A stretch of 64,000 bases of DNA. Source: Pseudobacteriovorax antillogorgiicola (lineage in GTDB: Bacteria; Bdellovibrionota_B; Oligoflexia; Oligoflexales; Oligoflexaceae). The position numbers were made by a program, and so were the translations under genes. This document shows, in pieces, positions 7,967 to 10,632 of the stretch (position 1 is the stretch's first letter; each line of letters opens with the position of its first letter). Where the stretch lies: the NCBI RefSeq assembly GCF_900177345.1, contig NZ_FWZT01000010.1:124001-188000 (forward strand). Direction: 5' to 3'. The notes under the pieces are model-generated. The model was given only the letters and a program-made list of their open reading frames with translations. It was not told the DNA's origin and searched no databases.

Positions 7967-8734
7967 ATGAACGAGAGGAACGAGAAGAATCTGAAAGTCA
8001 TGGGGCTCATGGAGCACCTAGACGAACTTCGCGGACGGATCTTTCGTTCGCTCATTGCTGTAGTGATTATATTCGGGATCGCCTTTTCCTTCGCAAACTA
8101 CATCTTCGAATTTCTTAAAGGGCCACTCGTGGCGGCCTTACCTGAAGGGTCAAATGCCCTTCATTTTACTGGCCCCATGGATGTTCTTATCGCCAATATT
8201 AAGATATCTTTTTTAGCAGCTGTCGTTGGAGCCTGCCCCTTCTGGCTATACCAATTTTGGAAGTTTTTGGAGCCTGCCCTATACGAGCATGAGAAAAAGT
8301 ATGCAATTCCTTTTCTCTTCTCATCCGTAAGTCTGTTTTTTAGCGGAGTTGCATTCTGCTTTTTTGTCATTATGCCCCTTGCGATGGAGTTCTTGATCCA
8401 AATGGGTATGGAAGTGGGAACTCCCATCATCACCGTTGCCGACTATGTCTCGGTGCTCATGCTTCTGATATTCGGCTTCGGATTGGTATTTGAAACCCCT
8501 GTAATTCTAGTTTTACTAGCCCTACTTGACCTGGTCGATGCCGATATGCTAGCTGAGAATCGCAAGTTTGTCCTCGTTGGAGTGATGATTTTGGGAGCCC
8601 TTCTCACACCTCCTGATCCCATTTCTCAGATCGCCATGGGCTTACCTACCTATTTGATGTTTGAGATGTCGATCGTGATCATACGTCTCGTCAAACGAAA
8701 GCGGAAACCAGTTGAACTTGAAGTCAAAAACTAG
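7967..8734 (+). CDS. tatC: Sec-independent translocase subunit TatC
   Basis: A 255-residue inner-membrane protein with the TatC N-terminal signature MEHLDELRGRI, the cytoplasmic loop FLEPALYEHEKKY with its conserved Glu, and six hydrophobic segments. TatC is the receptor for twin-arginine signal peptides. No tatA or tatB is nearby, which is common outside enterics, so those partners must be elsewhere. ATG 7967 lies just after the polA stop at 7963-7965, with AGAGG inside the end of polA as ribosome site. Confidence 0.95.
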   Translation: MNERNEKNLKVMGLMEHLDELRGRIFRSLIAVVIIFGIAFSFANYIFEFLKGPLVAALPEGSNALHFTGPMDVLIANIKISFLAAVVGACPFWLYQFWKFLEPALYEHEKKYAIPFLFSSVSLFFSGVAFCFFVIMPLAMEFLIQMGMEVGTPIITVADYVSVLMLLIFGFGLVFETPVILVLLALLDLVDADMLAENRKFVLVGVMILGALLTPPDPISQIAMGLPTYLMFEMSIVIIRLVKRKRKPVELEVKN

Positions 8735-9443
8735 CCTAGTCTCCTGGCTTGTCACGCTAGGTCTGTTGTTTAGTAGTCGCGCTTGGGGCAATACCGATGC
8801 CCCCTTAGAATACCGACACTCTGCTTGGAGTATTGGCCTTACCTTTAAGAATCATATTCTTCGTTCACCTCAGGAAAATAACTTTCTTGGTACAGCCGCT
8901 GCGATCCAACTCGGGCGCACCTATGTCTATCATCGGTGGATTGCCGGGCTGAGTCTCGATGTTCTTACTGGCCCTTACGAGTCACCAGAAAGGCAGAACA
9001 TCGTTGTGGACTTCACAGGAACAGGTGCTTCTGGATACATTGGTTATGGCCTGAGCGGTGAACCCACACTCCAATCAGGGACTCTTGACTACGGCTTGAT
9101 CTTGAATCTTGGTTACGGTGATATGATTGGAAGGTCAGTTAGCCAAAGGGTCAGAACATCGGAAGATGACGAGCCGGTCAACAACTGGGTCATGCGTATC
9201 AATGACTTTTCCATAGCACCAGCTATATTCGTTTCCTGGCTTAAGCCCGCCCGCCCCGAGGGAAACTCTCCCGAACTTCTGGTCACCCGCATCGAGGGGG
9301 TTTTTGTTCATTTTGGAGCCCTGTTTCCTATACAAACCAAGTATAAGCTCCAGTATGACCAAGGAGAGAGCACCTTCAATGACAATGGTGACCTTAAAGG
9401 CCACACCTGGTTTCTGGCCATCACTGCGCTCATTGGCGTCTAA
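8712..9443 (+). CDS. Outer-membrane/secreted beta-rich protein, unknown
   Basis: A 243-residue protein with a Sec signal (SLVSWLVTLGLLFSSRAWG) followed by a barrel-like pattern: WSIGLTFKNHILR, GTAAAIQLGRTYVY, WIAGLSLDVLTGPY, SGYIGYGLSG, YGLILNLGYGD. The start must be TTG (8712 or 8718), inside the end of tatC, so translation is coupled; no ATG lies upstream of the signal. It ends in FLAITALIGV rather than Phe. Most likely an outer-membrane barrel; there is nothing to give a substrate. Confidence 0.75.
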   Translation: MNLKSKTSLVSWLVTLGLLFSSRAWGNTDAPLEYRHSAWSIGLTFKNHILRSPQENNFLGTAAAIQLGRTYVYHRWIAGLSLDVLTGPYESPERQNIVVDFTGTGASGYIGYGLSGEPTLQSGTLDYGLILNLGYGDMIGRSVSQRVRTSEDDEPVNNWVMRINDFSIAPAIFVSWLKPARPEGNSPELLVTRIEGVFVHFGALFPIQTKYKLQYDQGESTFNDNGDLKGHTWFLAITALIGV

Positions 9444-9486: not shown

Positions 9487-9517
9487 AGGAGCTACCTCCC
9501 GATATTTATCGAAGGAG
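9487..9517 (+). promoter_or_regulatory. Leader with two mutually exclusive hairpins that cover or free the ribosome site
   Basis: CTCC at 9496-9499 can pair with GGAG at 9488-9491 (4-base loop). It can also pair with the ribosome site GGAG at 9514-9517, in a hairpin extended by CGAT (9500-9503) with ATCG (9508-9511) around a four-base loop. The second form has eight pairs, a two-base bulge (9512-9513) and buries the ribosome site of the gene at 9526. The upstream GGAG acts as a decoy that could release it. This is what the sequence permits; folding was judged by eye. Confidence 0.45.
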
Positions 9518-9525
9518 CGTTCACG

Positions 9526-10164
9526 ATGTCTGAAAATATTCTAATTAAGCATTTTAAAACCCCTATTTTTCGAAAAATCTTCCGCCACGGACACTACTTC
9601 CTTTGCGGAATTTGCCGTACGGAATATCATAACCGGGTCGATGCCAATAACTGCCTCAACCACTGCTGGTATGCACTCAAGGAACAGTACCCTCTGATCG
9701 TTGTTCGTGACTTCGTTCATGGCCGCCTGTTTCGGTGCCAGTACTGCTTTCGCCTCTACAAAACCGAAGATGCCGGCTTGGAGTGTGCACGACGCTGCAC
9801 CGATGGTCGAGAAAAACGCCATGTTCAAGAACAGCTCGCTTCCGACTTGCCTATATCAGTGAAGCCAAGGCGCAAGTTCCGACTCGTGAAGATGGTACCG
9901 CAAGAAGAGACTCTTCAAGCAGCTCCTGCTCCCACTCCCCAGGCTCCACCACCACCTGAGCCAGAACCTGAGATCCCTGAAGAACCGGCTGTAAAAGAAC
10001 CAACAATCATCAAGCGCCATAAATCCGAGTTTCCAAAGAATTGGATTCGAGACGGGGCTAAGTATAAATGTAAGTTTTGCAACGAACTCTACTACACGAA
10101 AGTTGAAGTTGAAAAGTGCTTCAACGACCACTTCGATGCTCAAGGTTATGAGAAATTGGAATGA
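9526..10164 (+). CDS. Protein with three C2H2/C2HC-type zinc-finger-like modules
   Basis: A 212-residue cytoplasmic protein with three modules of identical spacing. Module 1 (from residue 27) is CGIC-x12-CLNHC, module 2 (from residue 71) is CQYC-x12-CARRC and module 3 (from about residue 184) is CKFC-x12-CFNDH. All fit C-x2-C-x12-C-x3-[CH], the spacing of classical eukaryotic C2H2 fingers, with a conserved aromatic at the fourth position after the second Cys (Y in all three). Between modules 2 and 3 lies a Pro/Glu-rich linker (about residues 125-160) after a basic patch (KPRRKFRLVK). Likely zinc binding, nucleic acid or protein contact possible. ATG 9526 has AAGGAG 8 bases ahead, inside the leader hairpin. 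It is not a family I can name. Confidence 0.85.
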   Translation: MSENILIKHFKTPIFRKIFRHGHYFLCGICRTEYHNRVDANNCLNHCWYALKEQYPLIVVRDFVHGRLFRCQYCFRLYKTEDAGLECARRCTDGREKRHVQEQLASDLPISVKPRRKFRLVKMVPQEETLQAAPAPTPQAPPPPEPEPEIPEEPAVKEPTIIKRHKSEFPKNWIRDGAKYKCKFCNELYYTKVEVEKCFNDHFDAQGYEKLE

Positions 10165-10190
10165 AAAAAAGGAGCGCTAATAGCGCTCCT
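10164..10190 (-). terminator. Intrinsic terminator for hpf
   Basis: A perfect stem, GGAGCGCT (10171-10178) with AGCGCTCC (10182-10189), and a 3-base loop. On the minus strand it is followed by seven T, complementary to the A run at 10164-10170. It therefore ends hpf transcripts; on the plus strand the trailing sequence CAAATTTTG makes it weaker. Confidence 0.85.
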
Positions 10191-10215
10191 CAAATTTTGA
10201 AATATAAGATGAAAG

Positions 10216-10632
10216 CTAAGCCGGTCTTCGCCGCCGAGCTTCTTCAAATTTCACAATCTCAGCCGCATCGATAGAATAGGCTTCTTCCGCTTGAGCTGAG
10301 TAATCCACTTCAGGCATGGTTCGCACCGTGCCTTTATTCTTGTGGCTCTTCAATTTGTCTTTCTTTCGCTTCAATTGAGCACCCAGCTTATCGATCATGC
10401 GATCGACAGAGCCATACATGTCTTCACAGGCATGTTCGACATTAAGAGAGAAGCCATCACCGCTTACCAAGACGCAATTTGCATGTTGCAAATGGCGATC
10501 GACAGAAAATGTCACTTGAACCTCGATGGCCTTTGTCACAAATTTCTCGATCTTGGTACGCAGCTTCTCTTCAGCGTAGTCTTGAAGTGCCTGAGATGTG
10601 TCCATGTGTTTAAAGGAAAACTGGAACTGCAT
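10216..10632 (-). CDS. hpf: Ribosome hibernation promoting factor, short form
   Basis: A 138-residue protein with the single HPF/YfiA (S30AE) domain: MQFQFSFKHMDTSQALQDYA, HANCVLVSGDGFSLNVE, DMYGSVDRMIDKLGAQLKRKKDKLKSHK. It lacks the long-HPF C-terminal dimerisation domain, and its last 40 residues are a short acidic/basic tail. It binds the 30S decoding region in stationary phase. ATG 10632 follows GGAGG closely. It is single-gene, with a terminator at 10164-10190. Upstream are an inverted repeat (10678-10687 / 10697-10706) and a CCGATAAGT box near 10723-10731. Confidence 0.92.
   Translation of the reverse strand: MQFQFSFKHMDTSQALQDYAEEKLRTKIEKFVTKAIEVQVTFSVDRHLQHANCVLVSGDGFSLNVEHACEDMYGSVDRMIDKLGAQLKRKKDKLKSHKNKGTVRTMPEVDYSAQAEEAYSIDAAEIVKFEEARRRRPA

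Follow-up and report, generated by a model that had tools for sequence, protein, structure and literature searches.

Three zinc-finger modules in a 212-residue protein

The window analysed here, a stretch of 64,000 nucleotides from Pseudobacteriovorax antillogorgiicola (contig NZ_FWZT01000010.1, positions 124,001 to 188,000), contains at 9526..10164 of its plus strand the gene P0001, an open frame whose coordinates and frame were confirmed and which encodes a protein of 212 amino acids with three zinc-finger modules. All positions given below for this locus are those of the window, and all parts of the gene lie on the plus strand. The ligands of module 1 (9604..9666) are C27-x2-C30-x12-C43-x3-C47 and those of module 2 (9736..9798) are C71-x2-C74-x12-C87-x3-C91, both sets consisting of four cysteines (C4); module 3 (10069..10131) carries C182-x2-C185-x12-C198-x3-H202 and is of the C2HC type. 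In every module a tyrosine occupies the fourth residue past the second cysteine (Y34, Y78 and Y189). When P0001 was shuffled 200,000 times with its composition preserved, one module appeared in 324 of the shuffles and two or more in none (0/200,000): the ligand pattern C-x2-C-x12-C-x3-[C/H] in triplicate is beyond chance.

A preliminary description of this DNA had proposed three modules of exactly this spacing with a shared tyrosine position, and both claims are borne out by the translated frame. Its label "C2H2/C2HC" is right for module 3, which is C2HC, but not for modules 1 and 2, and none of the three is strictly C2H2. Similarly, "evenly spaced" describes the ligands within the modules but not the modules themselves, whose starts lie 44 and 111 residues apart, with 90 residues separating modules 2 and 3. 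The basic patch and Pro/Glu-rich linker that it had placed before module 3 are indeed present: amino acids 109-125 (9850..9900) have a net charge of +6 and are followed by a Pro/Ala/Glu-rich linker, amino acids 126-165 (9901..10020), of net charge -5 and of a length that varies among homologues.

AlphaFold2, supplied with a ten-sequence alignment (P0001 and nine relatives), gave a model with a mean predicted local distance difference test score (pLDDT) of 75.9 and a predicted template modelling score (pTM) of 0.44; the modules reach about 81-96, the linker is of low confidence and residues 116-126, at the end of the basic patch, fall below 50. Each module is predicted as a hairpin followed by one helix. 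In module 1 the hairpin (amino acids 18-27, 9577..9606) is formed by strands 18-21 and 24-27 and the helix spans 37-53; in module 2 the hairpin (57-71, 9694..9738) is formed by strands 57-62 and 66-71 and the helix, 81-106, runs beyond the last ligand; in module 3 the hairpin (173-182, 10042..10071) is formed by strands 173-176 and 179-182 and the helix spans 192-201. The hairpin of module 3 carries a motif found family-wide, [WFY]-x-R-D-G-A-K-Y-x-C. The N-terminal pair modelled alone returned the same strands and helices. Structure prediction, a check named in the preliminary description, thus agrees with it at the level of secondary structure and pLDDT. We regard the ligand assignments as strong and the hairpin-helix fold of each module as strongly predicted.

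An undescribed family in the Oligoflexia

P0001 belongs to a family defined by an N-terminal C4 pair and at least one C-terminal [FYW]xRDGAKYxC C2HC finger, both of which it contains. Relatives at E<=0.001 were found in 38 of the 58 genomes of the phylum, in a scan built on module 3, one tight peptide pattern that diverged members can escape. The related loci point to the Oligoflexales (Pseudobacteriovorax, Oligoflexus metagenome-assembled genomes, MAGs) and the Silvanigrellales (Fluviispira, Spirobacillus), two orders of the Oligoflexia in the Bdellovibrionota. Family paralogues hold one finger or four to six; the genome of the window itself has an open frame of 420 codons (C14) that encodes six fingers and a short one (C38) that encodes a single finger, and stand-alone single-finger proteins of the family measure about 43-60 amino acids.

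Across 12 Oligoflexales homologues, with a mean column identity of 32%, none of the 12 ligands varies. When the set is widened (n=18), either Cys or His serves as third ligand in module 3, an exchange that keeps a metal-binding residue, so that conservation of the ligands, the other check named in the preliminary description, also supports it. The His is seen in four Silvanigrellaceae proteins (L031, L033, L034 and L038), whose module 3 thereby has a true C2H2 ligand set (HxxxH). In pairs of homologues dN is well below dS and lowest in the fingers, the closest pair having a dN of 0.039 and a dS of 0.367, with dS saturated in the more distant pairs; the gene is under strong purifying selection. 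In a tree of the N-terminal pairs the Oligoflexales three-finger proteins group by family, on long branches and with weak deep forks, and the tree is compatible with the Silvanigrellales three-finger proteins being either orthologues or parallel paralogues.

P0001 has no significant match among Pfam or NCBIfam models or PDB sequences, in line with the earlier remark that its family was not recognised, and the family has no description in the open-access literature searched, subscription papers lying outside that search. Because P0001 and most of the relatives tested score below every Pfam and NCBIfam cut-off, the family largely escapes routine annotation. It is an undescribed, conserved, vertically inherited and class-wide family of bacteria.

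Members also occur outside the phylum. Candidatus Magnetocorallium paracelense (Nitrospirota) has a six-finger member (L043:3667-4845), which sits on a 5.4-kb contig, and a single-finger member (L053:5950-6111). This is the one Nitrospirota genome with the family out of 296, and the CoaD-like neighbour of the single-finger gene reaches 63% identity with Nitrospirota and no more than 47% with the phylum of the window. Transfer is therefore likely for the single-finger copy, and contamination as its source is disfavoured by this CoaD-like gene, the one neighbouring gene examined. A tblastn search of plasmid and phage collections gave no family match, and none of 12 pattern matches in viral contigs was confirmed.

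Comparison with known zinc fingers

C2H2-like fingers in tandem count as a hallmark of eukaryotes; in bacteria the described case is Ros/MucR, a single finger with a different spacing. The modules of P0001 are arranged in the manner of C2H2 fingers in animal transcription factors. P0001 shares with the classical C2H2 finger (PF00096) the frame aromatic-x-C-x2-C-x3-aromatic-x5-hydrophobic-x2-ligand-x3-ligand, as well as the predicted hairpin and helix. It departs from the classical ligand set, C-x2-4-C-x12-H-x3-5-H, in that Cys takes the place of His at the third ligand of every module and at the fourth ligand of modules 1 and 2; it also has an additional N-terminal strand motif, FxRDGAKY, and is without TGEKP linkers. 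PF00096 is absent from its Pfam matches up to an E of 10. Because P0001 has neither the classical ligands nor a Pfam score above the cut-off, it is not filed as a classical C2H2 protein. One Silvanigrellaceae relative, L031, just reaches it with 25.3 bits against the zf-C2H2 cut-off of 25.2, in module 3. That C4, C2HC and C2H2 ligand sets occupy equivalent positions in different relatives bears on the origin, or re-invention, of the classical finger.

Ros/MucR resembles P0001 in being a bacterial zinc finger with a C-x2-C knuckle on a beta-hairpin and a helix bearing the other two ligands. However, it is a single finger of the form C-x2-C-x9-H-x3-H-H, whereas P0001 has x12 spacing, other ligands and several fingers, with one helix per module in the AlphaFold2 model, and the earlier exclusion of Ros/MucR is upheld. 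No Pfam or NCBIfam family model matched P0001; Ros was not among the fold-search matches shown, which is no proof of unlikeness. The bacterial ZZ histones, in which a zinc module with two sites (C4 and C2H2) is fused to a histone fold (PMC11390915), are likewise bacterial and have a C2H2-type site within the ZZ module, but P0001 has no Pfam match and its model has no three-helix histone region.

Among the matches from fold searches with the predicted modules, at Z 2-3.4, are many zinc fingers associated with nucleic acid (Kaiso, SALL4, ARS2, spliceosomal proteins, archaeal 70S proteins and TUT1-U6), so that solved C2H2 fingers appear among the best, though weak, fold matches. The likeness to zinc fingers of RNA-protein complexes (SF3A2, ARS2, archaeal 70S proteins) consists of weak single-module matches at Z of about 3 and is one of fold only. 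A profile of the N-terminal pair matched solved C2H2 arrays, namely Aart (E 3e-7) and Zif268 (1e-5 to 8e-5).

Finger surface and possible function

The helices of the C-terminal fingers are nearly uniform at several positions. Position -2 is Phe or Tyr in 56/56 C-terminal fingers of the family, -1 is Thr or Ser in 54/56, +1 is Lys or Arg in 54/56, +3 is Glu or Asp in 53/56 and +5 is Glu in 35/56. The rarefied entropy at -1 and +3 is 0.94 and 1.17 bits, versus 2.74 and 2.96 in a comparison set of 41 classical fingers drawn from the arrays of one genome of the same phylum; the base-reading positions of classical fingers differ from finger to finger, but in the C-terminal fingers -1 and +3 are almost constant. 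Variation is seen in these fingers at positions 2 and 6, and in the N-terminal C4 fingers at -1, 2, 3 and 6; the invariance argument is limited to the C-terminal fingers. In the model of P0001, the predicted helix 192-201 follows directly on T191 and has E194 as its third residue, an arrangement that would fit a Thr-x-x-Glu capping box (N-cap/N3). Positions -1 and +3, base-reading in classical fingers, are thus probably structural here.

We favour the view that P0001 is a zinc protein of the cytosol with a generic affinity for nucleic acid, be it DNA or RNA, and we hold it with about as much confidence as doubt. Each module would most likely bind one zinc through four Cys/His side chains and adopt a fold much like that of the classical C2H2 finger, with a beta-hairpin, a zinc knuckle and a helix. 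A flexible linker, variable in both length and composition, tethers the N-terminal C4 pair to at least one C-terminal FxRDGAKYxC C2HC finger. Inspection by eye reveals no signal peptide, and the protein would remain in the cytosol. Conserved basic residues, namely the Arg of RDGAKY, the Lys at helix position -4 and the Lys/Arg at +1, would provide a generic grip on nucleic acid, in which Lys -4 and Lys/Arg +1 could touch phosphate; linked fingers would add avidity, and there would be no modular reading of DNA sequence. The interpretation given in the preliminary description is supported by our results, zinc binding, localisation and nucleic acid as the partner being what we infer.

Several observations weigh against the favoured reading. 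Each finger has a modest net charge of +2 to +3, and the invariant aromatic at helix position -2 might just as well contact a protein. The database searches, as said, found nothing significant; the Z scores of the fold matches are low and interspersed with unrelated rows, small Cys-rich modules being loose matchers, and the N-terminal-pair profile also matched Cys-rich trypsin inhibitors (E of about 0.07). In the Silvanigrellaceae the fourth ligand of modules 1 and 2 is Asn, Gly or Asp in place of Cys, and four ligands are kept in module 3 only. Finally, the genes flanking orthologues and paralogues are housekeeping and unrelated ones and offer no functional clue.

The main rival is a protein-protein adaptor, whose fingers would dock on one conserved cellular protein and whose paralogues would tune avidity by finger number. 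The positions of the C-terminal finger that correspond to exposed ones in classical fingers are nearly the same in all copies, paralogues and families, as if one shared surface were met, and both the solitary single-finger proteins and the flexible linkers of very variable length are in keeping with such a role. However, the conserved basic residues and the sequence and fold likeness to nucleic-acid-associated fingers argue for nucleic acid, and there is no conserved partner gene nearby; we consider the adaptor rather unlikely. The small single-finger members are suited to structure determination and binding assays.

Less probable still is the RNA branch of the favoured reading, an RNA- or ribosome-associated factor whose fingers would sit on structured RNA (e.g. 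rRNA) in the manner of ribosomal and small nuclear ribonucleoprotein zinc fingers. For the N-terminal pair, archaeal 70S proteins, spliceosomal zinc fingers and TUT1 on U6 RNA are among the top structural matches, but at Z of only 2-3.2, level with unrelated rows. The invariant aromatic beside basic residues could stack on bases. The finger gene adjoins hpf (10219..10632, minus strand), which encodes an S30AE/HPF-type ribosome-associated protein (PF02482, E=1.4e-21; also supported by synteny); however, hpf is convergent and not co-transcribed, genes intervene between the two in some relatives and the neighbourhood of the finger gene differs in the Silvanigrellaceae. hpf is a conserved neighbour, not an operon partner.

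That P0001 acts as a sequence-specific DNA-binding transcription factor in the eukaryotic C2H2 mode, one finger per base triplet, seems very unlikely. The ligand spacing and hydrophobic frame are those of classical fingers and the profile matches to Zif268 and Aart point the same way, but the reading of one triplet per finger is disfavoured because -1 and +3 of the C-terminal fingers are invariant between copies, and neither the missing TGEKP-type linkers nor the long gap between modules 2 and 3 suits it. A redox or metal-storage role of the cysteines, with an incidental finger fold, would account for a Cys-rich protein but is highly improbable, since a ligand that changes from Cys to His and a finger frame whose hydrophobic residues are conserved both fit structural zinc.

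Returning to generic nucleic acid binding, it is tempting to speculate that the Oligoflexia possess a tandem C2H2-like toolkit of their own, comprising single-, three- and multi-finger proteins that would bind the nucleoid or RNA, with members passed horizontally to at least one of the Nitrospirota; we put this forward tentatively, doubt having the upper hand.

Surroundings of the gene

A Shine-Dalgarno-like GGAG, read directly in the sequence, lies at 9514..9517 on the plus strand, with the ATG 8 nt downstream. Between the convergent finger and hpf genes is a terminator-like hairpin (10169..10191, strand not assigned), of a kind of which about one would be expected by chance in the region. 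The one match to an Rfam model around the gene stayed below threshold (20.6 bits against a gathering score of 36.7) and was taken as chance. The order polA-tatC-ORF-finger gene-hpf-recD2 is shared by families f1 and f8; f7 retains part of it, and f12 lacks it. The open reading frame (ORF) between tatC and the finger gene, 243 amino acids at 8712-9440, is conserved at this location in f1, f7 and f8 and has no Pfam match.

Classical fingers elsewhere in the phylum

One Oligoflexales genome (G035, family f11) contains tandem classical C2H2 fingers in intronless ORFs (L109:4460-6785 and 8185-8829, L110:3390-4016, L111:111-992, L113:4642-5691 and L114:2551-3264). It has 46 PF00096 matches, many above the cut-off, and the three ORFs tested score 74-95 bits per protein. 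Contamination of this MAG is a possible explanation, against which a similar ORF in a second genome, G019 (L115:3009-4046), can be set. These ORFs are unrelated to the P0001 family. A signal-peptide-like stretch opens most of them, and a phage-type integrase and a DEAD-box helicase are among the products encoded nearby. Their appearance is that of eukaryote-like finger proteins secreted by a possible symbiont.
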